Of a stretch of 64,000 bases of DNA, positions 4,621 to 62,435 are shown in pieces (positions within the stretch are counted from its first letter, which is position 1; the number at the start of each line of letters is the position of its first letter). Source of the DNA: Paramacrobiotus metropolitanus. Lineage: Eukaryota > Tardigrada > Eutardigrada > Parachela > Macrobiotidae. The notes beneath the pieces were generated by a model. It had not been told where the DNA came from. It saw nothing but the letters and a program-made list of their open reading frames with translations, and made no database searches. Location of the stretch: NCBI RefSeq assembly GCF_019649055.1, contig NW_026570322.1, positions 1 to 64,000 on the forward strand, written 5' to 3'. The position numbers and the translations under genes were made by a program.

Positions 4621-4624
4621 GCAC

Positions 4625-7476: not shown

Positions 7477-7624
7477 CCCGGATTACCGGATCTGTTGTTT
7501 TCTGTTCTTATGGATCACCTTCAAGTCCGATGGAAAATCGGCAATCGGCATATGAACAATGCACATCCCAATCGCTAATCTCGCACAGTAAATAGTAAAA
7601 TACCGGTATGTGTAAGCTTTAACG

Positions 7625-8160: not shown

Positions 8161-8800
8161 CGCAGAGTGAGCCTGAGAGTGCATTTTTGTGTGTAGGCCC
8201 GTCTTTAGTTATTAAAGAGGCGCAACAGCAGGCGCCCCAAGGGCAAAAAATACCGCGTGGTGCTCCAGTTCCGATTTTTTTTAATTCTGGAAGATTTCTA
8301 ATTTTAAGACTTTTTTCCGGGAGGAGTGGCTCAGCTCTAAAGAGTGGCCTGGCCGTGTGAATGCAGCTGAAGATGCTACTCTGCCTTTTTGGGTCACGCA
8401 GGAGTGTCTCGCTAACTAACTTCTTGATCACTCAGTGTGCTTTCGTATAGCTTTCCTGCAGCAAGCCGACGCTGTTGTGTTTTAAGAACGCAATTGCCTT
8501 TTAAATTGTTGATCCTCGTTGTGAATGAGACCAGTGTCAGCATCTCAGAGTATCTGTCACGAACATTTGTTTATTAGATCGTTGTAATTCATTTCTAAAA
8601 CGTCGGCGCCGACAATAGCTACATATAACAGCGCCGATCATTAAATTTGAGATTAATGACTTTTAACGGTTTCTTAATGAAAGTTTCTTTTACTTCAGCG
8701 TGAAGATTGTCATTCTTCTTGTAGTTGTTTTTAAGGTGTCCAAAACTTGCCGTAGAAGCCGCAGCACCAGACCAAGCACGAGCAGGCTCCAGATAAGGCA

Positions 8801-21959: not shown

Positions 21960-22740
21960 AATAACTATGACAGCGCCGATCATCTGATTTGTGGTATCTT
22001 GACTCACAAGAAGGTATTTAAGCAATATAACGATGGAACTTATTTAGCGCTTGACAGAACCTTCCAGCTGCGCAGGCAGGGACAAGATAAAAGGCCACCA
22101 CTGCAGCTACGATAAGGGTTACTAGAATCGGGAAAACACCGGAACACAGACTCTTCTAATTTTACCAGCCGTTTAGATTATTGCTGGGTTTGCAGTCTGC
22201 CACATCTAGCGCGCCGCATCCGGTTACGGGAAATATCCTCCTGCGTATGACGTTTGAACCTTGCAAGCGCTATCTAACATTGCAAGTGCTGGAAGCGCGC
22301 AAACTCAAAGCCGGTTACTGCGATCCCTACTGCAAGGTTCAAGTGGTCCCTGGACAAGCGTACGTAGCCTTAAAGTCTTCAACCAAAATTATGCTTCTTC
22401 AGTGTCATTACTCAAACGGACATCTTTGCGTGCACTATAGGGAATTCCCGTACCACACGCGCTATATCAAGCACACTCTGAGTCCTGAATGGAAGGAAAC
22501 CTTCACATCTGGAGCCATTGAGCCCGCTGAGATTCACGAGAAGAAAGTCGTTATGTCCGTGTGGGACAAGAATCGGCTGCTGGCAGACACTTTCCTCGGC
22601 GAAGTCATCGCGGATCTCACAGGTATACGAAGCTTTTACTCCAAGCGGCAAATAAAGCAGGTATTACTGAATTTGCTTTTTATGTGTTATAAGATCCAAC
22701 CCACCTGGATGGCGTACGGCGCTGGTATCATCTGGAATAG
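21960..22740 (+). pseudogene. C2 array copy 6: truncated, membrane exon deleted
   Basis: Exons 21960-22013, 22196-22359, 22441-22622 and 22694-22740 are in phase. C2 domain: HPVTGNILLRMTFEPC, CDPYCKVQVVPGQA, EFPYHTRYIKHTLSPEW, DTFLGEVIADLT, LDGVRRWYHLE. By comparison with copy 3, the sequence jumps from its intron (acagcgccgatcat, about 8628) straight to the end of its membrane exon (ctcacaa, about 9347). A deletion of some 700 bp therefore removed the start exon and the membrane helix and made an 18-codon hybrid exon. No clear initiator remains, though an upstream ATG could feed the frame. The C2 itself has no lesion. A soluble C2 product cannot be excluded. Confidence 0.6.
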
Positions 22741-23740
22741 CGGTGTGCCATGGAGACCGATGAAATGTAGTATTCGTCACATTGCCACACCGGTGCTGTC
22801 TAGGAGCTGTTGCGTGTTGGTAATTAGTTAGTTGTTACGCTGGAATGTGAGGAAAGTCTTGTACAATACTGCAGTATATCGCTATTCTACATTGTAGGTG
22901 TTACGAGCGTCTGCGCATTTATTTTGAATATTTGCAGCTACTTACATGTTTGAACCTTTGTATATTTTGGTTTCCCTAAAAAATATTTTACATTGTGAAG
23001 GGATTTGGAATGTGCGGAGTTTGTGCATTCGTACCTGAAGTCTGAAGATGATAATTTCCCAGATTCACGCAAGCACATTAGACATCGAATCTCGCGCGAA
23101 TGTATGTAATTTAGCCGTATTTAACAGTGCTTGGACAAGAGGTTTTTTGAAACCCTGCGTGTTGGCAGGCTGAACTTTATGCTTCATCCAGTCTCGCTTC
23201 CATTTTTCCCTTCCGGCGGCCGCAATACAGATTTCAGCCTTTTTGCTGTTACTGGGGCAGTAATCGGTCGAATAGGCTTTTTTTAACAAGAAAGACATAC
23301 AGCCAAATTAGATGGCAAATTACCTTTATCTGTAGAAGTTCACGATGAGTGGTTGAACTTAACTGTTTAACATACAAACAGCACTCGTAAGCCAAGGCTG
23401 CAAAAAGTAGCGGCAGCATTCTACTTTTTTTGTTTGAAATGTCATAATGTGTTAATTTCATGACCAAAAAAATTAGCAGTTTTAAATAGAAATAAGTAAA
23501 TAAGTCACGAAAAAGGATTAGTAGTCGTTTGCGAAGTTGCTTATTAAAACGGGAATACATAACTAACGGCTTATTAACATTTAACACCATCGGAAGCATC
23601 GAAAATACACAGTTGCTTTACTTCTCTTCACAACGCTCGTAACCCAATTCCGCAACCTTTACCACAGCCGCTTTTTTCTTTTTTGTTGTTGTCGTTTTAG
23701 GAGATTGAGGAATATACTCTTCCAAGCGATCGAAGTGGAA
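22741..23740. other. Intergenic, no gene recognised
   Basis: The first part is the 3' flank shared with copy 3. The remainder is unique AT-rich sequence. I see no family signature on either strand. Confidence 0.5.
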
Positions 23741-28467: not shown

Positions 28468-29576
28468 CTAATGATGACAATTGGCATATACGCTGGGCAA
28501 CAAGGGGTTCTCCAGCGTAAACTCCTTCACTGCATCCCTGGTGCCGGCATTCCATGTTAATCCGCAGGTGGCCTTAACAGTCAGTGACCAGGGTTGCCCA
28601 CCGAACGGATTACGATAGCTTGTAGCCCATTCGTTGCGCTTTGCGAACCAATTGGCCAAATCCTTCATGGCACAGCATGCACAGTCTGCTTTGTCCGGAC
28701 ACACGGGATTGTGACCAATATCAAAGATCACATCACCATACTGCCGGACATCAAAGGTGTCGACGACTTCTTTAGGAACGGATGACAAGCGGCTGTGGTT
28801 CAAAGCTAGTGTTGTGATATTAATAGAAAACAACGGCCCGCTGCGTCGCAAAGTCTGCAAGGGTGGATTCTGCGCGTCAACTCCCAGTAATCTCTGTAAA
28901 AACCAAAGGCCCTGCAGTAATAATTTTATTTCAATAAAGTAACTCTAATGCCTACCAATTTTGCGGCTACCGGTTCCAGAACACTCCAGTCCAACGTTTG
29001 TAAAGCATTCCCGCCCATTCTGAGCTGAACGAGTTCCACAAGCGGTTCAAAAGCTTCAAGTTCAATGGTACTGATATCATTGTTGCGAATGTCTAGTCTC
29101 CCAAGGCGGGTGAAACGCCGGAGGAAATGCCGGTCCAGCGTGCCGATTTTGGAATAGTGCACATTCAGGGTTAGGAGACTGGGGACTTCTGCCAACAGGA
29201 CGTCAATAGGCGCGCGGCCACCTCCTTCCGCCTGGAAGCCAATCAGCGTCAAGTCCCACAACCAGTAGCGGTGTGAAAGGGCTGTAGCACCTGGACCAAT
29301 GGTGTTGCAGTAGGTGCGGTTGACACTGGTGGGGCAGTCGAGGATGAGCGTATTGACGTCGTTATAAATTCGGCTACTCGTAGTGTTAAAGTACAAAGTT
29401 TCCGTGCGGAAATTCCCGGGGATATGCAAGTCGGCATGGCTGCACGTCAGTTCATAAGGGTCGGAATAGTGGCAGAGAGGATGCGGGAAAAATGGTGTCG
29501 TGTCGGGATCGCCGGGTCGCGTACGCCATCCGTTTGTCGACTTTATCAGAAGGATTGCTAGCAGTAGTTGCAGCAT
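28468..29576 (-). CDS. Secreted leucine-rich-repeat protein, intact
   Basis: Minus strand; exon 1 is 29576-28956 and exon 2 is 28893-28468, joined at a gtagg donor and tttttacag acceptor. The total is 1047 nt, 348 aa, no lesion. Residues 1-16 are a signal peptide (MLQLLLAILLIKSTNG). A cysteine-bearing N-terminal region follows (HPLCHYSDPYELTCSHADL) with several N-x-S/T sites. LRRs then read LTLNVHYSKIGTLDRHFL, LGRLDIRNNDISTIELEAF and LVQLRMGGNALQTLD. In exon 2 come INITTLALNHSRLSSVPKEV and a C-terminal cap with clustered cysteines and NWF (CPDKADCACCAMKDLANWF). No membrane helix follows, so the product should be extracellular. Ligand and role unknown. The paralogue at 15029-16125 is broken. 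Confidence 0.75.
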
Positions 29577-30480
29577 TCCCTACGATGACAGGTACATTAC
29601 ATACAATCACCAAACTGCAGCCAGTACAAACATACAGGCTCAAGGCAACATTACACTTCCGTATGTATCAGTACCTGGGATTCAGCGCTCCACTAGCGGT
29701 TTATTTGTCTAAATGCAGAACACTACCATAAATGCCGCAGCACAGGTTAAACGTGGGAAGTGGTAAAGCCACGAGTTAGCGGTTAGGAGCTCCAATACAA
29801 CGCTTGTTCTGTGCTTTCCGTAACACAACGCTCCTAAATACTCGGTTTCCAAAGTCGACCATCCAGGCACGCACGGCTGCCGGCTCACAAACGGTAACTT
29901 GCCCGCGACTACTTAAAGAAGTTTTCTCTCTAATGTGCTCCTTGCTCAGTATTATCTGAGTACGCATCTGTGACTGATTACAATCGTTTTTACGGAGCAC
30001 ATATTTCGAAATTTCACTGGCTGGCTTATCCAGATTTCAGATCTATATGGCCACGAATGGGATACACCAGAGCCGGTAAACCAGAAAAGACTGACCCAAA
30101 CCAATATTATATTCTGAAAGCCCGTAGTCGAAAACCCGGCCAGATAGTATTCATTTCTTTCTGAACCTCTCCCGCTTCGAACGCCAAAGCGGAAGAGTTG
30201 ACTACCTTCACCCAATGCAACGAAATTATTATAATAATAATTATCATCGTGGTATTTTTAGCCACGCAATGTTGCCACGTAAACCAACTAAATTATAGTC
30301 AAAAAATGAAAGTCCGCTCTACTGATTAAATTATCAAATGAATTTAATTAGCAGACCATTATTACGGCAAGAACAACTACGTATGTAACGTTGTCATCAA
30401 GTACGATTTATGCACTAGTGCCGGCCGAGCAGCTATCGCTACGCTGTCACTAGTCACGACCATGATTGTCTGTTCAATCA
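29577..30480. other. Intergenic, no gene recognised
   Basis: This is the 5' flank of the LRR gene, then unique sequence. No coding signal supported. Confidence 0.5.
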
Positions 30481-35199: not shown

Positions 35200-37288
35200 C
35201 TATAAATTCGGAGAAGTAACTAAAACAGCACAAGGCTCGGCAAATTTCTGATAAACTGGCTCACATGTACTATTATCAGCCCGGAAAGCGACCTTTTCCC
35301 ATGAATTCCTTTCAGGATCATAGATATCCACGATTCGCGACACATATTTGTTTTTATCTGACCATCCGCCAATGATGTAAATGCGTTTGTTTATTACAAA
35401 TGCGCAATGCTTCATCCGGGCTTTTGGCATGGAGCGTCTCTTCTCCCAAGTACGCGTTCGCATATTTAAGCGTACACACGAGTCCATCGCTCCGTGACCG
35501 AGGGTTTCGCCTCCCAAAACGTATACGCACTCGTCCAGTGCAACCGCCGCAAAGGACCACCTGGATTCGGGCCACACCGGGAACCTCTGCCACTCCTGGT
35601 TTACCGTGCTAAAGCTCTCAACGCATACCGAAAGCGGAATTCCCTGCTTGAGGAAAATGTTTATCCCGATGTAAATTATCCGGAGACCGGTTTGTACTCC
35701 ACACACGACTTGCCCAATCCTGCAACAGCGAACATACACATTGCAATCAGAATCCAGCAGGGGACAAACTGAGAAACTGGTATACATACTCCTCCCATAC
35801 TATCGCAGATGTCATGGGTAGCTTCGGTAACACGACCACTTTTCCATCTGTGACACTTAAAACTTTGAAGTCGTTGTCCATATTGTCGATGTAATACACT
35901 TTGTCCTGTATAGCCAATGCAGTATGCTCGCGAACTGATACACTGGGAAGCATAATGTAACGCCAAGTTTTTTCCACCACATTCCAGGTAATCGTTCGCC
36001 GATCCGCGCTTTTCTCCTTAGGGTCCCAAATTCTGCAAGCGATTCCATTGTTCGCTATAAGGAACTCGTTGGAAAATCGTTTGGTTTGAAGCTCTACAGG
36101 CACAGGAAAGTCCTCCACAGTATTATTGTAGGCATCCATCTGCTGAACAGACATTTTGGACGGTTTCCTTGTTGCCGCTTCGGTGTCGTAAAACAAAAAA
36201 ACGTAATCTATGAGTTTTGGATCTTTCTCGACCAAACTTTGCACTTGTCGCAGTACTCCCTCTAGCTCCTGAGCGGTTGCCCTGTTCTCACTTTTTGCAC
36301 ACAAACAGCGGCGAATACATGCGGCCAAATCTGCCGGGAGTGCGTCGGGAATTACGGGAACGTAACCAGCGATCATCAGTGTAACGAACCCAGCGTTAGA
36401 GAGTTCACTTGTTTTCTCAAGCTTTCCTTCTGGACCCAACAGCACAAGTTCATCATTTGATCTTGTGACACAGTTTCCCATTTCTAGGACAATACATCCA
36501 ACGCTCCACAAATCGGTTTTAGCCCCTGAGCTTCCTGTCCCGGTTTTTCATTGCGTAACGTGGCGAACCTCTGAAGCATTTCGGGCGACATATAACGGAT
36601 CGTGCCACGAAGATGTGTAATATCGTTTGTACAGGTCATGTCTCGCTGCATTTCTACCAAATCATCCAAATCGCCAATTAGCAGTCTTTTTTGGCCGGAG
36701 TTAGTGCGCTTGATCAGCACATTGCCTGGTTTCAGGTCTCCGTGAATGATGTTATTCTGGTGAAGGAACTCCACTCCTTTAGTGATTTCGATGGCATACA
36801 GAATAGCTGTTTTCTGATCAAGCAGACTTTGACTTTGCCGTAACTGGTATAAAAGAGCTGCCAGATCACCTAAAAGAAGCGTAAAGCAGCGATGAGAATA
36901 CGGCAGAAATTAGTCGTTTTTGTTAGTAATTTTTACCATCATGGTACTCCATCATTAGCTCGACCGTGACTCCTCCGACCGCTCTGATGATAGTCACTTT
37001 ATGATAAGCAACCAAGTGCTCGTGCCTTAGATTCACTAACGATCTCAATCTATTCCGCGCTTGTGTGTAATTTTTGGGGTTTACCAGATTTTCCATTGTT
37101 GATTCCAAGTGCACTACCTTAACTGCCACTGAATCCTCCCCTGTGTAGTTTCCGCCATCTGTAACCGTTGCCTTGAATACGCTGCCGTAAGAACCTTTTC
37201 CAATGAAATCGTCATGGGTGCTATAACGATATGTACACGTGGTGCCAAATGTTTCGCATTTCGGTATCATAAGGAAACCTGCTTCCAT
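35200..37288 (-). pseudogene. Kinase-Kelch fusion gene with one frameshift
   Basis: Minus strand; exons 37288-36937 (start perhaps at 37270, MIPKCETFG, like K4), 36869-35790 and 35719-35200. Exon 1 is a kinase N-lobe: glycine loop GKGSYGSVF and lysine in VAVKVV. Exon 2 has a catalytic loop HGDLKPGN (HRD changed to HGD), IGDLDD at the DFG position, RYMSPEM, TDLWSVGC, and then Kelch blades (TITWNVVEKTWRYIMLP). Exon 3 continues the propeller (FAAVALDECVYVLGGE, RTWEKRRSMPKARMKHCAF, RIYIIGGW, NSWEKV). One base is missing in the G run at 36522-36526; adding a G restores the frame between MSPE and TDLW. All else is open, so a real gene with an assembly slip is nearly as likely as a pseudogene. The promoter is presumably divergent with K2. 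Confidence 0.65.
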
Positions 37289-37500
37289 TGCATGCAGTTA
37301 ACAAGCGCGAAGAGACTTATTGTTAATCCAACCGGTTTAATATCATAAATGTCGTGCAGGAGTAAAAATGGAGTCTGTCCCTCAAGTATCTTCTGTAACT
37401 GCGCATTCCTCCAATTACTAACATAAAGATGAACAGTGATCAAAACGGTAACGCGGGGATTATAACTCTATCACAATAAAGTTTAACGCTGCGGCTCTAA

Positions 37501-37953: not shown

Positions 37954-40917
37954 ATGATCGCATCTGTTGGTAGCAACTGCACCTACGCTTATGATAGTAA
38001 AGCTGATCTTGTGGGAGTGGGGCAGTTTGGCACGGTGTATTTAGCAACTATTACACACCGTGGTGATTATTTCAGGTCGCTGTTAGGAGATCTACTGGTA
38101 TTTAGCAACTATTACACACCGTGGTGATTATTTCAGGTCGCTGTTAAGGAGATCTACTGGAGAGAAGAAGAGAACGTAGAACGTGAAGACGAGCGCATGT
38201 TGCGCAACTGCATATCTGTGCTTCAGCTTAAACATGAAAATTTGGTACAGTACTACAAGCTTACAACTCGACATGTTCATAAAGGGATAGTGGCAGAAAT
38301 CATGATGGAATATTTTCCAGGTTTGTTCTACGTAAATATTTCATCCTCATATGTGTTGTGAATTTGCAAAGACTTTCAGCATAAAAATAAGTGGTACAGT
38401 ACAGTAAAGTACTAGTACTAGTTTCAGTACAATACAGTAATAGTTTTAACTGCAGACGGGAAGCTGGATTCTTTCTTGAGGAACACCCCCAAAGACAAAT
38501 TCTCGCTAATTAATCTGGTGAATTTTGCCCACCAAATATCCAAGGGATTGGCATTTTTGCATGCTAATCGGATCATTCATGGCGATCTGGAACCAGAAAA
38601 CATATTTTTACATTATCAAAGAAACGAGGGGTATAATTTGCGTATAGGTACTTTGGAATACGTAGATTTTTGTACCGTCGAGGGCAAACGAACGCCAGAA
38701 ACCGGACCCGTAAACGTATCTTATATGTCCCCAGAAATGTTAACCCATATCACAGGATGGGGTGATGTTAATCGATGTGGCAGGAAAACCGATGTGTGGA
38801 GTCTTGGCTGCACTATTCTTGACCTCGCACACTGCCATTACGGCATCCAGAAAAGATGGATGTACAACAATAAAGCAGAGAAGAAATTCCGCATGGACCA
38901 CTTCACGATAATTGATCTCTGTGTTAGCTTGATGGAAGGCTATCTACCGATGATACCAGACATCGTTTACGGAGGAATAAAAACAGTCACACAGCGCTGC
39001 TTTTGCCAGGATGTTGATTTACGCATTACCGCTAGTGATGTTGCTGATGCACTGGATCGTTTAGCCGTCGCCATACGACCAGTCAAGTGTTTCGGTAGTT
39101 CCTGTCTTTATCATTACGACCACAAGAGCGACCAGATAGGCGGAGGTGCTTCTGGTTGCGTTTATAAGGCCAGGATAACAGAGCGGGGAGATTTTACCGG
39201 TGACAGTGTGGTGGCAGTTAAAAGAATTTTTCTCAAGACTGATACTCGTACATGCGACAGCTCTTTCCACAATCCAGAGAATGCAGTTTACGAACAAATG
39301 TGGACGTCCTTACTGTCCTTGAAACATGATAATGAAGTGACTTACTATAAAATTGACACGGAGAGGCAACAAGTGGCCACCATCGTAGAATTAGTAATGG
39401 ATTACGCTCCAGGTACGGTTCACAGTAAAAGGACTATCCTTGATTCCAGAGATAACGGAAAAAGAACATCATTTTGAGTCCATTTAATAAATCTATACAG
39501 GGCAAGGCTTAAAAATGTTTATTTTCACCGTTAAACTTCTTCTGTATTATTTTTTACTTAGAAGGCACTGGTAAGATGTTTGTTATCACCAACCTGCAGT
39601 TAGGTAGTTAGGATTTTAGTACCTTACTGTTGCACCATAACAAATAGCGGATAATGCGACAGGGTACTAGTGCTAAACGCCAAGTGTTGGAAACAGATTG
39701 CTTACTCTACTCGTATAGAATCAATGAACTATGAGATGCGTATAATTACAACATTTCGACTTCGTATGCAGATGGAGACTTGGATGGTTTTATTAAATCC
39801 GGAAGGTCATTGTCCTGGGCTAATGTTATCAGTTTCAGTCAGCAAACAGCTACCGGCGTGGAGTTTCTGCACGCTAATAACTTTGTGCACTGTGACTTGA
39901 AACCCGCAAATGTGCTTATGCGCCGTCAGTGCCGGGACAAATGAAACCTCCAGATCACGGATCTGGATGATGGTATCATCACCGAATACAGCCACGTATG
40001 CACCAAAGACATTGGACGAGCTAAAGGAACTTCACGATACATGTCACCGGAAATTGCGAAGATGCATGCAGAATGTGACCTTATTAAGCCTAGCAAGAAA
40101 ACAGATATCTGGAGCGTGGGTTGTATTGTCATGGATTTAATGGATTGCCATTATGGTAATCACGATAAATGGTTTCACCTCTCATCCGAAAGCGATGGTG
40201 CTTGTATAGATACGAGGATTAGAATGTCTGAAAGGGGAAATGCCAAACGCGTTATAGTTCAAATAGCCATGGGTTTCGTACCACTAATGTTTTCCTCGGC
40301 GCACGGAAGAATCATCGACAGTGTAAAAAACTGTTTCTGCTACGAAAGCAGAGATCGAGATTCTGCGACACAGTTGTTAGCGAAACTGAAGAAACTGGAC
40401 CCTCAACTAGGCGATATGGAAGAAAAAACTTCTGGTACGTTTGTACATTCAGCATGCGTAAAACCTGTTCCTCCCTGTAAAATCGAATAAATGCATGCGT
40501 ACAACGACAAATCATACATGCGTAACAATTCAAACCTCTATTGTAGGGATCCTAAACCGGGCATCTTCAGATTACACTGCACTTTTGAAGATTTTAAACT
40601 CCATAACTGACGAAGACGTCCAGCTGACGGTTGCATGGGTTATTAAGAACCGTGCCAATCAAAATCGATCCGAATGGGGTGGGGTGTCAATAGCCACCGT
40701 CTGTGACCACCTGGATTTACCGGTGTCAAATTGTCCGCAGGAAACAGAGATTGCATTGAAGAGTTTTATGTTTCGTCCCGATATTGCCACTTGGCTGGAA
40801 AAGGTATACGAACGTCTCGATCCTACAGACGGAGCCGTGTACTGCAGCACAGTACGGGACCAGTTACCGCGTCCGGTGTGCAAAATTGGAAACTACTGGT
40901 TTCAGAATGACCTGTAA
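37954..40917 (+). pseudogene. K2: tandem-kinase plus SleB-like gene, broken copy
   Basis: Exons 37954-38320, 38456-39412, 39772-40434 and 40547-40917, positioned as in intact K4. Exon 1 starts MIASVGSNCTYAYDSKADLV with loop GVGQFGTVY. A 61/62-bp tandem duplication (38037-38159) and loss of the codons before VAVKEIY then destroy the first N-lobe. Exon 2 is open: IIHGDLEPENIF (HGD; the catalytic-loop Lys is Glu), a TLE instead of DFG, KTDVWSLGC, then the second N-lobe GGGASGCVYKA and VAVKRIF. In exon 3, FVHCDLKPANVLMRR is followed by TGA at 39942-39944 where K4 has Trp. The frame is otherwise open through TDLDDG, RYMSPE and KTDIWSVGC. Exon 4 encodes an intact SleB-like domain (VQLTVAWVIKNRANQNRSEW, DPTDGAVYC, NYWFQNDL). 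Confidence 0.7.
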
Positions 40918-42085: not shown

Positions 42086-42128
42086 CTCTGTAGACGGTGC
42101 CATCTTAACCATGGCACCGTCTACAGAG
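42086..42128. repeat. Perfect palindrome at the K3 glycine-loop codons
   Basis: The arms ctctgtagacggtgccat (42086-42103) and atggcaccgtctacagag (42111-42128) are exact complements with a 7-base spacer. The right arm contains the codons for the GTVYR part of the kinase glycine loop. Everything that should precede it in the gene is missing. Confidence 0.85.
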
Positions 42129-44174
42129 CCATCGTTAAGAAGCGCGGGGATTTCACCGGTCCAGACAGAGTCGCTGTGAAAGAAATTTATCGAGGAAACG
42201 ACGTAAATGATGACCTGGGCTCGTCGCAAATTGGCCGTGTTTTATTATACGAAAATGAACAGCGTCTTGTATAATTCTAATATAATTCTTGTATAATTCT
42301 TGTTGTATAATTCTTGTTCTTGTTAACTTTTATTGCAGCAGCAATGAAAGATGGTTGAAGAAAAACGGAGTTGTGGAGAATTTTTTAACTAATGGTTCCA
42401 GTGAAAATGCAGTCGCCTTCATGGCTGCGAAAGGCTACATCCCAGTGGTACCACACGGTATTCACGAAGGAATCAAATCAGTTTTTGAGGTTTGTCTATG
42501 TGAAGTTAACTCACGTGCCTCCGCTAAAGACGTACAGGAATCGCTACGAAACATGGTCTGCAAGTTGACAGCGATTTGTTCTTTCGGTAGCTCTTGCGTT
42601 TACCATTATGACCACAACAGTGACCAGATAGGAGGGGGTGCTTCCGGATCGGTCTATAGAGCAACCATAAAAGCACGTGGAAACGTCACCGGCAGCGATG
42701 TAGTGGCGGTCAAAAGGAGTTTCCTGAAGGACGACACAAGCGGAACTGAGGAAAAGAATTGGGTGGACGGCGTGGATGGAAAGATGTGGTTACCTTTATT
42801 GTCACTTAAGCATGAAAATGTGGTGGCATACTACAAAATTATCACCAAAAAGAAGCAAAATGGAACAGTAATTGAGTTATTGATGGATTACGCTCCGGGT
42901 ACACGCACAACAGTCGCCACATAATAATTACACATGAAACCGCAAAGCTAGAACTTAGGACGAGGAATAAATTTAATATACTGTATATTTAATATTCCAG
43001 CTCATGGAGTTTAAACATAAAGACGAACGTTTATTTGATTTCCAGACGGAGACTTGGCGACAATTACGAAATCCTATGAACAGCTTTCTTAGGCCATTTT
43101 GCGCGGCAAATAGCAACTGGTTTAGTGTTCTTGCACTCGCATAATTTTGTGCAATGCGACCTGAAGCCGCTAAATGTTTTAATAAGGCGCAACTGGGGAA
43201 ATAAGTTTCACTTACAAATAGCCGATCTGGATGATGGCATTATTACCGAACACACTTACGTCTGCACTAAAGATGTCGGAAAACTTAAGGCCGCTGCACG
43301 ATGTATGTCACCGGAAATGGCAAAAATGTTTGTAGAATTTGACCGAGGCAAGCCGGGAAAAAAACCGACGTCTGGAGTCTTGGTTACATTATCATCGAGC
43401 TAATGGACGCACACTGCGGCATTCATGACAAATAATTCCAAAAGACATGTACAACCGCAAACGAAAATGTACGGATGCGAATGTCTGACAAGAGTGGCGG
43501 AGGGCCTACAGTATTGCGAGTTGCGATGGGTTTTGTGCCGCTGTTGCTTCCATCGGTACATGGAAGAATTATTGAGGCAACGAGAAACTGCTTCTGCGAG
43601 GACAGTACACAACGAGATTCGTCAGCAGATTTACGTGCAAAACTAAATGCTCTTAACCCTGAACTCGGCGAGATGTAAAAGGGATCGTCAGGTACATGGG
43701 CTGTATTTGTTATGAGTCTGTCATCTGTAGGTTACACATGTACGGTATGACAGCGCAGGTCTTACCGGTTTTGTTAATTTTGTTGCAGAAGGGTTGGGCC
43801 GAACCTCCAATGATTACTCTGCTCTCTTAAAGGCTATGCTCTCCATAGCTTTTATGGAGCCGGAAGACGTCCAGCTGGCTGTGGCGTGGGTTATAAAGAA
43901 CCGCGCGGATTACAATCGCGCCGAATGGGGTGGCACTTCCATCGTCTGTGTATGTGGACATCTGGATTCGCTCGAGAGTTTCAAGAACGAAGTGCCTGAG
44001 CTGCACGATGCGAATTCTCAAACGAAAATCGAAAGCTGGCTGGAGAATGTTTACGACCGGCCCGATCCTACTGACGGAGCAGTGTATTTTACAAAAGAGA
44101 AAGATGAATTTTACGAAACACGCCGGTCACTGTGTAAGATTACGGGATACTGGTTCTTGAAGGACTTAGAGTAA
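42111..44174 (+). pseudogene. K3: tandem-kinase plus SleB-like gene, heavily degraded
   Basis: The first N-lobe survives only from GTVYRAIVKKRGDFTG to VAVKEIY (42111-42250). The rest of kinase 1 up to ERWLKKNG is absent, replaced by a tgtataattct repeat (42257-42320). Sequence resumes at about 42337 and runs to 42898 with the end of kinase 1 and an open second N-lobe (IGGGASGSVYRA, VAVKRSF). Exon 3 (43046-43691) has TAG for Trp after EQLS, an 11-base-scale deletion behind it, a -1 slip in an A run near 43359, FVQCDLKPLN at the catalytic loop and later stops. Exon 4 (43789-44174) is intact and SleB-like: EPEDVQLAVAWVIKNRADYN, DPTDGAVYF, CKITGYWFLKDLE. Clearly a pseudogene as a kinase. Confidence 0.75.
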
Positions 44175-45518: not shown

Positions 45519-48500
45519 ATGATTGCATCTATTGGCAGCACTTGTACTTACGTCTATGACAGCAAAGCGGACCTGGTGGGCGTGGGACAGTTTGGTACTG
45601 TGTATTTGGCAACCATTGCAAACCGTGGCGACTTCTCTGGGCCCAATCAAATCGCTATTAAGGAGATTTATGGTAAAGATGAAACAGCGAACAATCAAAC
45701 TTTGCGCGAACACAAGCGTCAACGCTTGCTATGTAAATGGAATTCCGTGCTCCGGCTTAATCATGAAAATTTAGTCCAATATTACAAATTTACGATTCGA
45801 CATGCGCTTAAAGGGATAGTGAAGGAAATCATGATGGATTATTTTCCAGGTTTGTGTTTAAAATTCCATAAGAAGGTATGTTGGTATTGTGGATCTGTAA
45901 TACCTATCTGTAACTCGAAAATGCATCAGACTAATGGTAATGCATTACGGTAATTTCAATTGCAGATGGAAAACTGAGCACTTTCTTAGAAAACACACCG
46001 AAAGACAAATTCTCGTTTCTTAATCTCGTGAGTTTTGCCCAGCAAATCGCTAGAGGCTTGGCATTTTTGCATGCTAATCGGATCATTCATGGCGATCTGG
46101 AACCAAAAAATATATTCTTACATTATCGAGGAAATGATGGCTACAATTTGCGCATAGGTACCCTGGAGTATGCAGAATACAGTATCACAGGTCGCGAGAA
46201 AAGTTATATTTTCGGACAGCTGATATATATGTCACCCGAAATGTTGGCAAAGATAACGCAGGTGGGTGGTGCTGATCATTGCGGCAGGAAAACAGATGTT
46301 TGGAGTCTTGGTTGCACTATCCTTGACATTGCACTTTGCCATTATGGGGTCAAAGACAGATGGTTGTACAACAAGGAAGTACAGAAGAAATTCCGCATGG
46401 ATCACCTCACGATATTCGAACTCTGTGTTAGGTTAGTAGAAGGCTATCTTCCCATGATACCCGACATTGTTTACGGAGGGATAAAGATGGCTATTCAGGG
46501 CTGTCTTTACCAGGATGTTGGTTTACGTTTGAACTCTGCTGATGTTGTCGATGCACTGGATCGCTTAGCCGTCGCCATACGACCAGTCAAGTGTTTCGGT
46601 AGCTCTTGTCTTTACCATTACGATCACAAAAGCGACCAGATTGGCTTAGGTGCTTCTGGTTGCGTTTATAAGGCCAAAATAACGGAGCGGGGAGATTTTA
46701 CCGGTGACAGTGTGGTGGCAGTTAAAAGAGTTTTCCTCAAAACTGAAACAGGTTACAGCACGGACAACAATCCAGAGAATGTAGTTTACGAAGAAATGTG
46801 GATATCCTTACTGTCTTTGAAACATGATAATGTAGTGACGTACTACAAAATTGACACGGAGAGGCAACAAGCGGCCACCATAATAGAACTAGTAATGGAT
46901 TACGCTCCAGGTAATACACAACTGTCGCAGTCTTTAACAGGACAGATATTAAAGGCAGTAGTGAAAAGCGGTGTACAATAATGAACGCCAGTTACTGGTG
47001 GCGCAGTATACTGTATGATGCTAGTAGGTCAATTGATTTACTTGGTCATGTACGGCAGTCCTAGCATGTACTGTGTATCTTGGACGGTGCTAGCGTGTTC
47101 ATTAAGTATTAATACCATCCCGAATAAATTCCCGATCCACCTCTTTGAAGGCCCTGGCCTTCAAAGAGGAACCATGAAGTTTCGCTGTTGCCTAAAATCA
47201 ATTACGATTATATAGATATTCATTTATAAATCACATTGTATCGCATAACAGGTAGCGCAACAGGGTGATAATTCTAAAGTTTGGAATTAAAAATGATCAC
47301 CTTACACAGTAAGATGAATTACGGGAAGTGTCACGATGACTCACATACATGAGGCCACCACGTGCCCGTCAAGGTCGAACGCCAAGGACAATGCAGTCAT
47401 AACTGCGTCATAATTACTCATTCTTGCATCATAATGACATCATAGGGATGATTCACGATCACACCCCAACCGGCTTCGATCCATATATAAAGAGCCCACC
47501 AAAGACATTCAATTCAGTCCAGTATCAGTCGAGTATCGTTCTGTCTAGTGATCACTTCTAATAGTATACTGTAGTGGGCAATGGTCAAAGATTATTAAAA
47601 GGTCGTGTACACCTGGTTGTTTGGTTCATTTGTAATCTACATAGGTACTGGTCATCGTTGACCTTTACACAGGACTCATATACACACAACACACAGAATA
47701 GGTCACACACAGGTAAAAGAACTCGTCACACCATTGTTGTGACAAATTGTCGTGAAGGATGAACCTGTTAGTGTGACCTTTGAATGGATTGAAGTTATAT
47801 GTTATTGATTTATATTGGATTATTGTACTGGATTGCTGGGAAATTTATTAAGTGCACAGTTATTAAATGAATTTTGTATAAGTTTTGGATTTGTCCTCGA
47901 GGAAATTTTTAATACAAGCCCACTTGCGGCACAGGTATTGTAAAGTGGTCCTACTGACCATAGGTCACTTTCATTACAGATAGTCGCAGACGACACAGGT
48001 ATCTGTCTGTTGTTGTTACCTGGTCCGTAATAGCGCAGCTGCATACAGATAGTCGTATGATTTTGATTTGAGCCCGTGGTAAAGATGATTTTTACTGAGT
48101 CCGTGGTAAAGTGTGAAATATTTGAATTATTTTAATAGTTTCCATTTGATCTTATTGTAAAATTTAGTTTGTTTTAAGGTATTACTAAATATGTAAAATT
48201 TAGTGAAAAGAAGACTACAAATCTATCTGAACGGAATAACAAAAAAAACGAATTGCTGAACTGAAATAAGTTAAAAAAAATTCCGAACAAATTAGCATTT
48301 TTATTTAAAAGTACTCATTCTATGGAACGATAATTATTGTGATTGGTGTTACTTGGATAAAACAAAAAAGCAGTTTACTCATTATGTACACGATTTGCTG
48401 ACACCAACAATCAGTGCCTATATGGTTTCACTGATGCGCAAATAGTAACACTGTGCAAGTTCCCCGCATAGTCGTATCATACGGGTTCGCTGGAGCGATC

Positions 48501-51500
48501 TTTGGCCGTGGTCTGTAAGATACTAGTATAGAAGGGCGTAACCGTGATCGATGCAAGCTAGCAAAGCATAAAACGAGAGAATTCCGATATGCCTTAATAT
48601 TACTGATTTTGCCAGCGGCAAAATAATTATTTAAATAAATTGGTATAAATCTGGTCGGTACAATAATATTTATCGAAAAAATTGCAAAATTTTTTTTTAT
48701 TAATTATTAATTAAACTTGCGCCTAAAAAACCGCAAGAACAGCGTAGTGTTTTAAAACATAGTACAGTTGCCGAGCGCGTTTCAAACAGACTAAGGAACC
48801 TGCCACCACCAATAGTACCAGAAGAACAGATTAATAGTAAATATTGGAATCCTGGAGGCAACAGTAATTTAGTAAAAAGAAGCATACCAGAAGTGAAAAG
48901 AGCTTCAGATAGAAAAAAAACCCCCGAAGGCTCCCCTGACACAAGCCTTGAAGAAAATTTGGAAGAAAATCTGGAACAAAAAACTAACGAGGACCTTATT
49001 GAAGGAGACGAAAAAAAAGAGAATTTACACGAGACTGCGTTCATAGAGGACGTTCGTGAAGAAGAATCGGACACCGAAAATTTTGAAGAGAATAATTTGA
49101 AGGATAAAGAGGAGGATTTAGACAACGGAAATTTACCTTTAAATCAAGATCAAGTGGAGGACGACAATTTCAACGGTCAGGAAGAATTTCAAAGAATGGC
49201 AGAGGGACCAAAGATTAAATTACCGCCTCCATTTTCAGCCGCTCCACATGAAGATGCGGAAACTTGGCTAGAATCTTATCTTCGATGCGCCGAGTCGTAT
49301 GCGTGGGACGATGCCACAAAAGCAAGAAGATTTCCCGAAGTCTTAGCTGGTACCGCAAGAAAATGGATCAAAAACCGTCCAGTTAATGCTGCAGCCGAAT
49401 GGAATGCAGTAGAAACAGAATTTCTCAAAACTTTTGGAAAAGTCGGCACACCAGAGCAAGCCATCGATATGTTGATATCGAGGCAGCAAGGAAACGATGA
49501 GAATTTTCGGACGTATTACTTTTCCATCCTGGACTTATGCAAACACGCCGACGCAAATATGGACCAGACAGAAAAATGATATTTTATTCTAAAAGGAATG
49601 CGGGACAAGCAAACAGCGATGCAGTTACGCATCATGGGCAAGAAAACACCGAAGGATATTTTAGAAGTAGCTGAAGAATTGTATCCTGTGAAATACAGGA
49701 CTCGTGAACAAAATATTGAAACACCAGCAGTATCTTTAACCCTGCCTTTTGCAAATGCAACAAAGAAGCATTCCACGGAAACTGATGAAATGACGAAAAA
49801 ATTGATGAGATTTTAGAAAAGTTGAACAAAATTGTAAACATGGAATTTTCGTCTGATTTTCCCAACAGAAGAGCAAAAGACCGCTCTCCACAAACGAAAG
49901 TCGAATCGGAAGAAACAGACTATGGTGAAGCAAGCTGCTATTACTGCGGTAATGAATTACCGATGCACAATGTCTATCATCTTCATTTTGGCATCGATCA
50001 GACATATCAAATACGTGCCGCAGAGAAAAGTCAGTACCGCATGGCAACGGAAAATATTTCGAAGTAGTAAATTAAGCAGAAGATGTATTACAGAATGCAT
50101 TGCATCATAGAATGGTTAAGCAATGATTGTTATTATTTTCATACCGTATTTTAACAAAGGTTTTCAGTTAAAGTTTATTTTCTAATATTCATTCATGTAT
50201 ACGTTTTACTGTTGTTTTATAATGATTTAAGGAACCGAAAATTATATTTTTTGAGCTACACATTATTTTGAGTTGAAATAGTTTATTTTATTTGTGAAAA
50301 GAGCGATGACAGAGAAGCTTTTATATATTGGTGAGCATATATCTTATTTCTTTTCTTTATTATCTGGCAAACCTGTTACTCGTTCTTCAGACTCTATTTT
50401 GCTTGCATTTTTTGTCTGCTATGATGACTTTATATTTGCATTAATTTGCTTGTAGTAATTTTTAATTGCTGTTTTGTGTTTTTTTATCTGTTTTGTGTTT
50501 TTTCTGTTTGTTTTTGTGTTTTCTTTGTGATACCTCAGTTTTCTCACGAGAGCATTGTGCGCATGAGTTTGCTAGCTTTTCTTTGACCATGATTTTCCTG
50601 AAAACCACCCTATCGCTACGATCAGAATGATTGGATTACCCGAATACCTAACAGAAATGCTGGATATAATTCACTATTTGTATTATTATGAATTTTTGTT
50701 TGCGTTTTATTAATTTTGTGACCTAAAATTCTGCTGTATTTATGTTTTCGAACTAGTCTTGTTGAGCCCACTACAGTCTGTAAAATGAATGCATAATCTA
50801 ATAACATGTTGTATAGTAACTGAACTCTTATATTTATTGTTTTTGTTAATTCTTCTAAACCTTTATCACATCCCGCTTTATTCGCCAGAGACGGCGAATT
50901 TCAAAGAGGAGGATTGTCACGATGACTCACATACATGAGGCCACCACGTGCCCGTCAAGGTCGAACGCCAAGGACAATGCAGTCATAACTGCGTCATAAT
51001 TACTCATTCTTGCATCATAATGACATCATAGGGATGATTCACGATCACACCCCAACCGGCTTCGATCCATATATAAAGAGCCCACCAAAGACATTCAATT
51101 CAGTCCAGTATCAGTCGAGTATCGTTCTGTCTAGTGATCACTTCTAATAGTATACTGTAGTGGGCAATGGTCAAAGATTATTAAAAGGTCGTGTACACCT
51201 GGTTGTTTGGTTCATTTGTAATCTACATAGGTACTGGTCATCGTTGACCTTTACACAGGACTCATATACACACAACACACAGAATAGGTCACACACAGGT
51301 AAAAGAACTCGTCACACCATTGTTGTGACAGAAGCTCGTATAAGTTTTTGAACTGATTTTCAGATGGCGATTTGGACGGCTTTATTAAATCCGGTAGATC
51401 GCTGTCCTGGGCCAACGTTGTCAGTTTCAGTCAGCAAACAGCCGCTGGTGTGGAGTTTCTACACACTCATAACTTTGTGCACTGTGACTTGAAACCCGCA

Positions 51501-52491
51501 AATGTGCTAATGCGCCGTCAGTGCGGGGATAAATGGAACCTGCAGATCACCGATTTGGATGATGGTATCATCACCGAATACAGCCATGTATGCACCAAGG
51601 ACATTGGACGAGCTAAAGGAACTTCACGGTACATGTCACCGGAAATTGCAAAGATGCATGCGGAATGTGACGCTAATAAGCCTAACAAGAAAACAGACAT
51701 CTGGAGCTTGGGTTGCATTGTTATGGATTTAATGGACTGCCATTGTGGCAATCACGATAAATGGTTTCACCTGCCATCCCAGAGCGGTGATGCTTGTATT
51801 GATACGAGGATCAGAATGTCGGAAAGGGGAAATGCCAAGCGCGTTATAGTTCAAATAGCCATGGGGTTTGTACCGCTAATGTTTCCCTCAGTGCACGGAC
51901 GAATCATTGGTACCGTAAAAAATTGTTTCTGCTACGACAGCGGAGAACGGGACTCTGCAGCCCAGTTGTTGGACAAACTGAAGAAACTGGACTCTCAAAT
52001 AGGTGACGTGCAAAAAAATTTTTCGGGTACGATTCTATCCATCTTTCGTTGCCGCAGTGGTGCCTTAGTCTATTGATTTATCCAAAACAAAGTATAACAA
52101 ACCATTGTTTAACTGTGCAGCTAGCCTGCACCAGACGTCGTCGGACTCTGCCGCACTCTTGAGGATCTTGGGCCCTGTAACTGACAAAGACGTCCAGCTG
52201 GCCGTTGCATGGGTTGTTAAAAATCGTGCCGATCAAAATCGATCCGAATGGGGTGGAAGATCAATTGCCAGCGCTTGTGACCTTCTAGGTTTACCAATGT
52301 CAGATGGTCCACAGGAAACAGATACTGTTTCAAGGAGTATCAAGGTCCACCCGGATATAATCTCTTGGTTGGATAGGATATACGAACGACCCGATCCCAC
52401 TGATGGAGCCGTGCACTGTAGCACAGCACGAAACGAGTTACCGCGCCCAATATGCAGAACAGGAAACTACTGGTTTCAGAAGGACCTTTAA
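45519..52491 (+). CDS. K4: tandem kinase (pseudokinase + non-RD kinase) fused to a SleB-like domain, intact
   Basis: Exons 45519-45849, 45966-46910, 51364-52026 and 52121-52491 total 2310 nt and give 769 aa without a lesion; all introns are phase 1. Kinase 1 (about residues 1-330): GVGQFGTVY and AIKEIY are good, but the catalytic loop is HGDLEPKN and the DFG site is TLE, so catalysis is unlikely. Kinase 2 (about 345-640): LGASGCVYKA, VAVKRVF, FVHCDLKPANVLMRR, TDLDDG, RYMSPE, KTDIWSLGC. It keeps Lys, catalytic Asp and metal-binding Asp but has HCD for HRD (non-RD). It looks MAP3K/TKL-like. The C-terminal 123 residues resemble the Hydrolase_2/SleB fold: VQLAVAWVVKNRADQNRSEW, RPDPTDGAVHC, TGNYWFQKDL. 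No signal peptide, so it is probably intracellular. Intron 2 carries an LTR retrotransposon. Substrate and role unknown. Confidence 0.75.
47140..47169. repeat. Palindrome in K4 intron 2
   Basis: cctctttgaaggcc and ggccttcaaagagg flank a 2-base centre. It lies 230 bp behind exon 2. Confidence 0.8.
47329..47744 (+). repeat. 5' LTR
   Basis: 416 bp, TG...CA ends, TATA-like box, identical to the 3' LTR by eye. Confidence 0.9.
48893..49816 (+). pseudogene. Retrotransposon gag, with internal stop
   Basis: The frame is open from about 48713; the first clear Met is at 48893. An acidic, low-complexity N-terminus (LEENLEENLEQKTNEDL) leads to a Retrotrans_gag-like core: ETWLESYLRCAESYAWDDA, ARKWIKNRPVNAAAEWNAVE, EQAIDMLISRQQGNDENF. 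TGA at 49577-49579 interrupts the core, after which the frame goes on (LKGMRDKQTAMQLRIMG) to 49816. A shift near 49790 leads to a further frame, to 50067, with a Cys pair (CYYC) that is a poor zinc knuckle. The gag is therefore defective in this copy, so mobilisation would have needed proteins in trans. Confidence 0.75.
50915..51330 (+). repeat. 3' LTR
   Basis: 416 bp, identical by eye to 47329-47744, followed by the GAAG target duplication. Confidence 0.9.
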
Positions 52492-59431: not shown

Positions 59432-60571
59432 ATGATTGAGTCTTTCGGCAGCAATTGCACATATGTTTATGACAGTAAAAACAGCTTAGTAGGTTACGGT
59501 CCCTTTGGTTCTGTTTACACAGCCACCGTAAAAGAGCGTGGTGATTTTACCGGTCCGGAACAAGTGGCTGTTAAGGAAATCTATCGAGACTCATCATTCA
59601 GTGGACCATTGTTTCTGTACGAAGATGTTCGCAGTAGGTGCGAAGTCTTGTTACAACTTAAGCACGAGAACTTGGTTGGGTACTACAGAATTACCATTCG
59701 AGAAGTAGCTAAAGGAACCGTGATGGAGATCATGATGGATCACTTTCCGGGTATGGGCTTCATCGTTAGACACTTTGGAAACTCATATGTTATTTTTGGG
59801 GCATTTGTATGATGCATGGGACTCCCTCAGTTAGACGTGGTAAAGCTCAAAACCAACTTAGCCAAAACATTTTCTTATTAATTTTGCAGAAAGCCACTTG
59901 AGTCAATTTTAAAGAACAGGCCAAGGGAAAGTTTGTCCTTGATCAATCTGACAGATTTCGCGAAGCAGATTGCTAATGGCTTAGTATTTCTGCATAAAAA
60001 CGGAATTGTGCATTGCGATATTAAACCAGCGAATACATAGTTGCAAGGGAAAGCAAATGGAGGATACAATTTGCACATTGGCTGTTTAGAGAATGTTGTC
60101 AGGATACAGCAAAGCAGCACACGTACGAACGACATAGCACAACTGCGTGGAACCATGCGGTATATGTCACCCGAAATGCTGCGCCGTTTTATGGCATTTA
60201 CCACAGACCCACCCCCTGGCAGGAAAACAGATGTGTGGAGTCTCGGTTGTGTTATTCTTGATCTAGTTGACTTTCATTATGGCATCAAAGAAAGATGGTT
60301 GAAGAAAAACGGAACTGCGGAAAAGTTTCTGACAGATGATGCAAGTGCTGAAGCGATCGCCTTAATGGTTGTGAAAGGCTACTTCCCAGTGGTACCGGAC
60401 GGCATTCACAAAGGGATCAAATCAGTTTTGGAAGTTTGTCTATGCGATGTCATCTCACGTTGCCCGTCTAAAGACGTACTGGAACTATTGCGCAACATTG
60501 TCCATGAAGTGACAGCGGTCAGGTCTTTCGACAGCTCTTGCACTTACCATTACGATCACAGTAATGACCAG

Positions 60572-60624
60572 ATAGGAGGAGGTGCTTCCGGCTGGGTCAC
60601 CCAGCCGGAAGCACCTCCTCCTAT
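60572..60624. repeat. 26-bp-arm perfect palindrome in the K5 glycine loop
   Basis: 60572-60597 and 60599-60624 are exact complements around a single base. The left arm is the normal coding sequence for IGGGASG; the right arm is its inverted copy, followed by tagcctgggtctataaa where the gene resumes. Confidence 0.9.
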
Positions 60625-61195
60625 AGCCTGGGTCTATAAAGCAGTTATAAAGATACGTGGAAACTTCACCGGCAACGATGTCATGGTGGTGAAGAGGATT
60701 TTTCTGAAGGACGAGATAAGCGGGAATGTGGGGAAACATCGGGTGGGCGCAACTGATGGATTAGTGTGGTTACCTTTATTGTCAGTTAAGCATGACAATG
60801 TGATGGCCTATTATAAAATAATTATCGAAAAGAAGCAAGCGGGAACCATAATTGAATTGCTGATGGACTATATTCCAGGTTTGTAGCATTTACGAGCAGT
60901 ACCAGCTAGCTACCAGCCTTCCACGTGCAAGTATATTTGGAAAGTCATTTTTGCGTATAACTTTACTGGCTGCTTATTATGCGTATAACATGACTAGCTG
61001 CTTGTATACTCTTTTACGTTATAAGCAGCAACTGTACATGTACAACCACCACTACTAGCAGTACTTCTACTGCGATTCGCAGTGATTGTACGGTTTCTGG
61101 TCAACTTTCTGCTTATACATTCGCAGTTACTCGCAGTCTTTGAACATGCTTACATAGGATTCAGGATTGCAAAAGGGCAGCAAAATTGTAGAAAA

Positions 61196-61245
61196 GCGAA
61201 TTGTCGGTCGGCAGTCTGTCGGTCAGCAAAACGGAGTAAACTGAC
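61196..61245. repeat. Short run of foldback-arm units
   Basis: attgtcggtcggcagtctgt followed by cggtcagcaaaac repeats the unit of the arm at 33635-33875. It lies in K5 intron 2, just before exon 3. Confidence 0.55.
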
Positions 61246-62435
61246 GTGCTACCATTTGAAAATAGTAAAACAATTGAATTATTTTATTATCAGTATTTTG
61301 CAGACGGAGATTTGACGACGTTTACCAAATCCAGTGAACCGCTATCTTGGGCCAACGTGGTCGACTTTGCGCAGCAAATCGGAACTGGTTTGATGTTTTT
61401 ACACTCTAGAAACTTCGTGCACTGCGACCTGAAACCAGCAAACATATTATTGCGACGGCACATTGGGAAAACTTTTAACTTGCAGATCGCTGATCTGGAT
61501 GATGGTGTCATAACCGAACATAGCCGCGTATGCAGCAAAGATGGCGGAAAACTCAAGGCTACGGCACGGTATATGTCACCGGAAATGGCAAAGGCGTTTG
61601 TTGAAACCGATTGTGGCTTGCCGGGAAGAAAAACCGACGTGTGGAGTCTTGGTTGCATAATCATAGACTTAATGGATTGTCATTACGGCAATCTTGACAA
61701 ATGGTTTCAAGGTGGACGGAAATGGATATACGCGAATGTGAATTTCTGATAAAAGTGATGGAGCTCCTACAATATTTCGAATTGCGATGGGTTTCGTACC
61801 GCTCATGCTTCCATCTATACATGGAAGAATTATTGAGGCAACAAGAAACTGCTTCTGCGAGAACATTAAACAGCGAGACTCTTCAACAGAGTTACTTGAA
61901 AAGTTAAAGAAGCTTGATCCTGGACTCGGCGAGATGAACAATGGATCGTCAGGTACTCACACTGTATTTGTACATATTACCTAATTATGTGATACGTGTA
62001 CAGTATAACCGAACGATGTGACAAAATGTACTGTACTAGTTGCTTTTATTTGCTGCAGCAAGGTTGAGCCGAATTTCGGATGATTACACCGCGCTCTTGC
62101 GAGTGATAAACTCCACAGTTGGAAAAGAGCCGGAAGACGTGCAACTGGCTGTGGCATGGGTCATAAAAAACCGCGGGGATCAGGATCGTGCCGAATGGGG
62201 TGGCGGTTCCATCGCCTCGGTGTGTGGCCATCTGGAGTCGCTCGGGAGTTTTAAAAACGATACCGCCGAGTTACACGATGCGAATTCTCAAAAGAAAACT
62301 GAAAGCTGGCTGGAGAGGGCGTACGACCGCCCGGATCCTACGGAAGGAGCCGTGTACTTTACCAAAAAGAAAAACGAAACACAACGGTCACTGTGTAAAA
62401 TTGCGGGATACTGGTTCCAAACGGAACTGGAGTAA

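Follow-up and report, generated by a model that had tools for sequence, protein, structure and literature searches.

A tardigrade gene predicted to join a pseudokinase, a kinase and a catalytically dead SleB-like domain

Anatomy of K4 and its paralogues

The window analyzed here is a 64,000-nucleotide stretch of DNA from the tardigrade Paramacrobiotus metropolitanus, positions 1-64000 of contig C102, and our genome searches covered the 169.8-Mb, 533-contig assembly. Within it lies K4 (gene C of a cluster of four related genes, A to D), whose limits in a preliminary description, 45519-52491, are confirmed by our gene model. Its domains come in the order kinase, kinase, SleB-like (Hydrolase_2), and from its sequence the gene is predicted to encode a pseudokinase followed by a kinase and a dead SleB domain. 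We hold this anatomy, jointly with the origin of the SleB domain set out below, with high confidence. The gene is organized as follows:

45519-52491, forward strand: K4 (gene C), four exons, three phase-1 GT-AG introns and a 769-amino-acid frame without a stop
45519-45849, forward strand: K4 exon 1, N-lobe of kinase 1; ATG at 45519, donor CAG/GTTTGT, phase 1
45966-46910, forward strand: K4 exon 2, C-lobe of kinase 1 and N-lobe of kinase 2; PF00069 at 4.3e-27, in two stretches
51364-52026, forward strand: K4 exon 3, C-lobe of kinase 2 and linker; PF00069 at 6.2e-22, donor TTTTTCGG/GTACGA
52121-52491, forward strand: K4 exon 4, SleB/Hydrolase_2-like domain without the catalytic Glu; stop at 52489-52491

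Kinase 1 is thus made up of exon 1 and the first part of exon 2, which has phase-1 introns on each side, and kinase 2 of the rest of exon 2 and exon 3. The PF00069 matches in the exon-2 and exon-3 frames bear out the two kinase domains previously proposed; exon 1 matches a kinase Pfam model at 2.5e-4, below the cut-off, and has homologous counterparts in A and D. Of two candidate donors of exon 3, 24 nt apart, the downstream one was chosen, because A, B and D each have an equivalent of it. Separate transcripts for the kinase and SleB exons, yielding no fusion protein, would fit the stop that is met within 18 codons when K4 exon 3 is read through into the intron. However, the exon 3-exon 4 junction is kept in all four genes (donor, acceptor, phase 1 and an intron length of 94-112 nt) though synonymous sites are saturated between some of them, and the head of exon 4 has no Met common to the window copies, so that we regard such a division as very improbable.

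Kinases are commonly read through their ATP Lys, catalytic-loop Asp and DFG motif. Kinase 1 has IAIK and HGD, but TLE (A and C) or CLE (D) in place of DFG, the corresponding stretch being missing from B; it is accordingly a predicted pseudokinase, without the DFG Asp. Kinase 2 of K4 displays VAVK, HCDLKPAN and ITDLDDG, thereby keeping all three residues, and looks active; its DLD motif is found in all four window genes. The best solved chains are MAP3K5 for kinase 1 (5e-16) and ULK1 for kinase 2 (2e-16), neither of which fixes the kinase group. A cytosolic location, as in the "cytosolic kinase" of the preliminary description, is plausible since the K4 frame opens straight on the kinase, with no leader evident by eye.

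The same description spoke of an arrangement common to four paralogues. This holds for the exon order and for the splice sites and phase at the exon 3/exon 4 junction, but the kinase parts of A, B and D are broken, and four working paralogues have to be rejected, as only K4 is open throughout:

37954-40917, forward strand: gene A, same exon order, SleB exon 40547-40917 open; tandem duplication of exon 1 with a stop, and TGA at 39942-39944 in kinase 2
42113-44174, forward strand: gene B, same order, SleB exon 43789-44174 open; kinase 1 largely absent, frame broken near 43365 and stops at 43433-43435 and 43676-43678
59432-62435, forward strand: gene D, same exon order, SleB exon 62059-62435 open; TAG at 60038-60040 in kinase 1, frame break near 61710 followed by a stop
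47329-51330, forward strand: long terminal repeat (LTR) retrotransposon in K4 intron 2, with two 416-bp LTRs that are 100% identical

Gene D also carries an in-frame insertion at about 60574-60622, palindromic by eye, near the glycine loop of kinase 2. Some of the frame breaks may be assembly errors, the substitution-type stops being less likely so: the genome of Paramacrobiotus sp. TYO is described as a Nanopore/Illumina assembly (PMC8277472), and frame errors would be possible if the present one is the same.

The 4-kb element in K4 intron 2 (46911-51363) contributes nothing to the protein; it has GAAG on both outer flanks and a gag-like frame at 48704-49579 (Retrotrans_gag, PF03732, 1.7e-6), no other frame in it being recognised. 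As its LTRs are identical over 416 bp, the insertion is recent. The LTR has 25 matches genome-wide, its own two included, and a second pair matching it at 100% lies at C1:2441641 and C1:2445226.

Identity and degeneration of the SleB-like domain

The C-terminal exon of K4 had been called SleB-like from its motifs, and this was upheld by several lines of comparison. A profile of the four window copies aligned with one of bacterial and phage SleB domains (20 domains, one row titled archaeon) at an hhalign probability of 98% (E 2.4e-13, 113 columns). Scored individually against the latter profile, the window exons reached 28.1 (C), 24.2 (A), 37.2 (B) and 37.7 (D) bits, against best shuffle scores of 7.6, 10.1, 6.1 and 8.2 bits, respectively (1,000 shuffles of each exon, of which 753-962 were reported). 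The shuffle control and the profile-profile comparison together reject a chance resemblance to SleB. With PF07486 (Hydrolase_2, Pfam cut-off 27 bits), copies B (27.8 bits, E 4e-6) and D (30.0 bits, E 8.3e-7) pass, but A (12.8 bits, E 0.19) does not. A genome search with K4 exon 4 recovered two standalone copies on contig C36 at 1.1e-16 and 2.3e-16, and the standalone type matches PF07486 at 71.5 bits (9.6e-20) and Bacillus cereus SleB (4f55) at 6e-9. We count K4 in the SleB family because of its homology to B, D and the C36 copies and the hhalign result.

When bacterial and viral rows were included in the alignment, AlphaFold returned a model with a pLDDT of 76 and a pTM of 0.72. SleB structures were the first three of its 22 PDB matches in Foldseek (E 0.15-0.43), and VIA-align gave Z-scores of 10.1 (4fet, 110 residues, root-mean-square deviation 3.0) and 9.9, the next entry scoring 2.1; the fold assignment leans on this Foldseek rank and on the VIA Z. 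Several results count against the family and fold assignment. K4 itself scores only 13.2 bits with PF07486 (E 0.14), below the cut-off; none of the 22 Foldseek matches in the PDB has an E-value of 0.001 or less; and AlphaFold run on the four window sequences alone reached a pLDDT of only 39, so that the structural support leans on the bacterial relatives in the alignment.

The preliminary description regarded the domain as formerly peptidoglycan-cutting, and besides the homology and the fold match the loss of its catalytic residue agrees with this. One alignment column is Glu in 20 of 20 bacterial and phage rows and in both standalone rows, Gln in all four rows of a further group (the copies on C46, C123, C36 at 1.02 Mb and C9), and V (K4), I (A), I (B) or T (D) in the kinase-fused rows. 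In 4fet_B (a 222-residue chain) the aligned residue is at chain position 120, which, as the 4fet_A model ends at 253, corresponds to residue 151; we take it to be the catalytic E151 of Bacillus anthracis SleB. The catalytic Glu is reported to be essential in SleB (PMC12331253).

The kinase-fused copies have further lost Q58, F59, W109 (an alignment gap) and H122 in four of four, positions kept in 19-20 of the 20 bacterial and phage rows, while N35, R36, G46, D90, T92, G94, A95 and F124 are kept in all four. The Glu-to-Gln group has W109 in 4/4 and F59 in 3/4. Over the 44 columns that show conservation in 14 or more of the 20 bacterial and phage rows, the mean share kept is 0.76 in the standalone copies, 0.50 in the Glu-to-Gln group and 0.40 in the kinase-fused copies. 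The K4 domain is therefore predicted not to be an active SleB enzyme.

Ratios of nonsynonymous to synonymous divergence (dN/dS) were computed by NG86, skipping stop or gapped codons. Between A and C they are 0.26 for kinase 1, 0.23 for the N-lobe of kinase 2 and 0.07 for its C-lobe part, and between B and D 0.27 for the N-lobe of kinase 2 (for each kinase-module value Fisher p < 1e-4, with rounded counts). For the SleB module the A-C pair gives dN 0.20, dS 0.76 and a ratio of 0.26, and the B-D pair dN 0.18, dS 0.73 and a ratio of 0.25; in the other window pairs synonymous sites are near or at saturation. These values show that the modules are under purifying selection, with dN/dS of 0.07-0.27. 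Since the ratio of 0.25-0.26 is found among copies without the Glu, the dead SleB domain stayed constrained once catalysis had been lost and the copies had split, over at least some of the time that has passed.

The same genes can be viewed as a family in decay, in which the fusion once worked but the locus has become a relic, K4 being the last copy to break. The stops or frame breaks in A, B and D, the insertion of a 4-kb element with identical LTRs into K4 intron 2 and the branch of the K4 SleB domain, at 0.39 longer than those of the other three, are in line with this, and with three of four genes broken and a recent LTR element in the remaining one, the system may be dying, which tells against a functioning fusion. 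However, the K4 frame is fully open over 769 amino acids, constraint is detected in the A-C divergence, and some of the breaks could have arisen in assembly if the genome is the Nanopore-based one; on balance we consider decay unlikely, while giving it appreciable weight.

SleB-like copies elsewhere in the genome

Searches with PF07486, K4 and the C36 exon at 1.02 Mb as queries located at least 11 SleB places in the genome: the four of the window cluster, two standalone genes, the four Glu-to-Gln copies and one on C94 with four stops. The idea that SleB exons occur only beside kinases is thereby rejected, as seven of the 11 (the standalone, Glu-to-Gln and C94 copies) lie elsewhere, on five other contigs. 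Features at these places are:

Locus L001 (C36:814.8k), 6827-7216: standalone SleB-like gene, catalytic Glu present, intact
Locus L002 (C36:825.0k), 5976-6365: standalone SleB-like gene, catalytic Glu present, intact
Locus L006 (C9), 4413-5993: domain of about 500 amino acids before a Glu-to-Gln SleB exon
Locus L004 (C123), 2641-4302, reverse strand: domain of about 500 amino acids before a Glu-to-Gln SleB exon
Locus L005 (C36), 4008-5479, reverse strand: domain of about 500 amino acids before a Glu-to-Gln SleB exon
Locus L007 (C94), 2076-2399, reverse strand: SleB pseudogene interrupted by four stops, sharing about 29-30% identity with the C36:1.02M copy

The two standalone genes are 93% alike, begin MDRNSHDY or MDRHSHNY, and have an apparent intron of the untranslated region (GTAAG...CAG) that ends 3 nt before the ATG, with no leader detected by eye; they are likely to be active, acquired wall hydrolases. 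In this they resemble the cwh genes of ladybirds, springtails, Daphnia and Hypsibius, which are described as horizontally acquired Hydrolase_2 genes (PMC7807722): there is no evident leader by eye, an apparent intron and the catalytic Glu. The same source reports ladybird cwh, with or without a signal peptide, as an antibacterial effector that keeps the Glu and has no kinase part.

The approximately 500-residue partner of the Glu-to-Gln exons opens with ...ITKIGGSVAHQL... in C9 and C123; the C123 and C36:1.02M versions are 47-65% identical to that of C9, and the domain has 22 matches in the genome. None of these three versions has a Pfam match over the cut-off. No partner domain was found in the 10 kb read around the C46 SleB exon, and the 500-residue partner was not found beside the SleB stretch of the C94 pseudogene. 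By eye, the donors before the SleB exon in C9 and C123 are of phase 1. In the four window exons two nucleotides separate the acceptor from the first codon, and the acceptor positions agree to within two codons; by eye the same position, again to within two codons, recurs in C46, C123, C36:1.02M and C9. Because this phase-1 acceptor sits at a near-identical place in both groups, we read the SleB exon as one movable terminal exon, which would have been captured through a phase-1 intron.

For phylogeny we used a 30-row alignment (A3) of ten copies from this genome and 20 bacterial and phage rows; L012 and L016 (near copies), L014 (a 39-residue match) and the C94 pseudogene were left out. The ten open animal copies form one clade (support 99/97), within which the kinase-fused copies group at 100/100, the C46/C123/C36:1.02M/C9 copies at 98/92 and these two groups together at 89/76. 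As the four kinase-fused exons form one clade, the fusion was duplicated as a unit; and as this clade and the Glu-to-Gln group join at 89/76, two separate captures and one capture with a later change of partner are equally possible. Support for the placement among the bacterial and phage rows is weak (88/69 with phage PBC5). The nearest outside relatives are Pseudomonas phage proteins of about 40% identity, several annotated as endolysin, followed by viral contigs at 38-41% and seven bacterial loci at 30-46% (one titled archaeon; the 46% spans 39 residues); of the records with matches, 6 of 275 phage and 4 of 6 plasmid records were taken. Judged by these relationships, the exon belongs to the bacterial/phage-type lytic transglycosylase family, and acquisition of Hydrolase_2 genes from bacteria has been described for ecdysozoans, Hypsibius included (PMC7807722).

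Contamination or mis-assembly would be a trivial source of such genes. Reports of foreign genes in assembled tardigrade genomes have met with dispute, and a study of Hypsibius reportedly found no evidence for extensive transfer. Against this, the window genes, C9 and C123 have apparent introns, as do the standalone genes upstream of their ATG; G+C content stays at 38-48% with no break along the 64 kb; a single contig has four genes in which kinase and SleB exons come in identical order; and the remaining SleB places are spread over the five other contigs. This explanation can practically be discounted.

A putative pseudokinase-kinase switch

Tentatively, and somewhat short of an even chance, we propose that K4 is a cytosolic pseudokinase-kinase switch with the dead SleB domain as its recognition or decoy module. 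Kinase 2 would provide the signalling output and pseudokinase 1 would keep it in check. The SleB domain would serve for recognition without catalysis, most likely as an integrated decoy with a protein as its target, either a microbial inhibitor or effector directed against a host standalone SleB enzyme or a host partner of that enzyme; binding there would release kinase 2. We infer the cytosolic place, the kinase activity, regulation by kinase 1, the binding target of the SleB domain and the immune role alike. Speaking against the proposal is that its immune link draws on domain origin, turnover and analogy, and that the genome has at least one match over the cut-off to Amidase_2, the PGRP-type family (28 bits on C25), so that SleB would have no obvious vacant niche to fill. 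The notion that SleB replaces lost PGRPs is rejected by this match.

Alternatively, in line with the bacterial sensing put forward in the preliminary description, K4 could be a direct peptidoglycan or muropeptide sensor whose SleB domain, though dead, continues to hold glycan strands and switches the kinase, much as non-catalytic PGRPs do. Kinship to peptidoglycan-cutting enzymes favours this, and the sister group, with its Glu-to-Gln change and largely retained W109 and F59, displays the pattern that a dead enzyme still able to bind would be expected to have. In the kinase-fused copies, by contrast, Q58, F59, W109 and H122 are gone throughout and the Glu has become V, I, I or T, so that the old cleft, which these residues are assumed to line, is unlikely to be intact; a sensor of this kind appears quite unlikely, and direct gripping of peptidoglycan by the K4 domain is possible but less likely than protein binding. 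A further alternative, also unlikely though a shade less so, is a non-immune one, with the SleB fold as a dimerisation, stability or docking domain of a stress or developmental kinase. Retention of N35 and the seven other residues in 4/4 copies despite the loss of the Glu would suit it, and related kinases have HSP70-like and Kelch partners, so that partner swapping need not mean immunity; but a bacterial-wall domain that follows two unrelated partners, together with tandem duplication and the presence of pseudogenes, would look more like a defence family.

Among known systems, the non-catalytic PGRPs resemble K4 in being a peptidoglycan-cutting fold that has turned into a signalling module without catalysis. 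They belong to the unrelated Amidase_2 family and keep ligand binding, whereas K4 has lost most of the near-invariant residues tested near its former active site. JAK-type tandems have a pseudokinase followed by an active-looking kinase, as in K4; unlike them, K4 has MAP3K5 and ULK1 as best chains, no N-terminal room in its gene model and the extra SleB domain. SleB/Hydrolase_2 lytic transglycosylases (Bacillus 4f55 and 4fet, phage endolysins, alphaproteobacterial hydrolases) share the sequence family and predicted fold of the C-terminal domain, which differs in lacking the catalytic Glu and four more near-invariant residues and in sitting behind two kinases.

The closest design known to us is the wheat tandem kinase-vWA protein Lr9, for which reason we favour the decoy role. 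Lr9 is WTK6-vWA, whose second kinase and vWA domain have been proposed as integrated decoys (PMC10260399), and it is this second kinase that is the putative pseudokinase, against the first in K4. Wheat tandem kinase fusions (Lr9, PMC10260399; Pm57, PMC11153570) are described as a kinase and a pseudokinase with an extra C-terminal domain, which is proposed to act as an integrated decoy; the K4 gene model has a like arrangement; they come from other kinase families and another kingdom, and their extra domain is vWA rather than a bacterial hydrolase. The likeness is one of architecture, not of common descent.

The preliminary description knew of no animal protein with this arrangement, and indeed we found no earlier report of a kinase-kinase-SleB fusion in one open-access library; the words "kinase" and "fusion" are absent from the main text of PMC7807722. 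The Hydrolase_2 genes themselves, however, are already known from a tardigrade and other ecdysozoans, according to that text. What K4 may add is a likely path from a bacterial enzyme to an animal signalling module, from a small acquired gene through phase-1 exon capture and catalytic loss to constraint. The interest lies in this stepwise conversion, and the broken copies weaken the case. A survey of tardigrades detected no NF-kB and few Toll or Imd components (PMC7056985); K4 and its sister fusions would be candidates for the detection of bacteria in these animals. If this is confirmed, animals and wheat would have arrived at the kinase-plus-decoy design by convergence. It is rather doubtful whether K4 stands for a new class of animal cytosolic immune receptor, with a horizontally acquired dead wall-cutting enzyme as decoy for microbial anti-lysin factors and the Glu-to-Gln sister as a second conversion of that enzyme, into a glycan-gripping lectin.

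Relatives of the K4 kinases occur next to other domains as well. On the reverse strand of the window, 35203-37297 is probably a kinase-Kelch fusion gene: frames at about 36926-37297, 36484-36909 and 35750-36547 belong to the same kinase group and run into Kelch repeats (PF01344, 9.1e-19 in 35203-35799). In two places a relative of kinase 2 lies in the same open frame as an HSP70-like part (PF00012), at L032 (C170), 7251-9035 on the reverse strand (2e-15), and at L033 (C32), 1933-3363 on the forward strand (1.9e-12), and a related kinase on C254 is apparently single. The window also holds two copies of a leucine-rich-repeat frame on the reverse strand (15477-15950 and 28929-29579; LRR_8, 7.8e-9 and 5.9e-9) and a C2-domain frame at 22160-22828 on the forward strand (6.8e-14).

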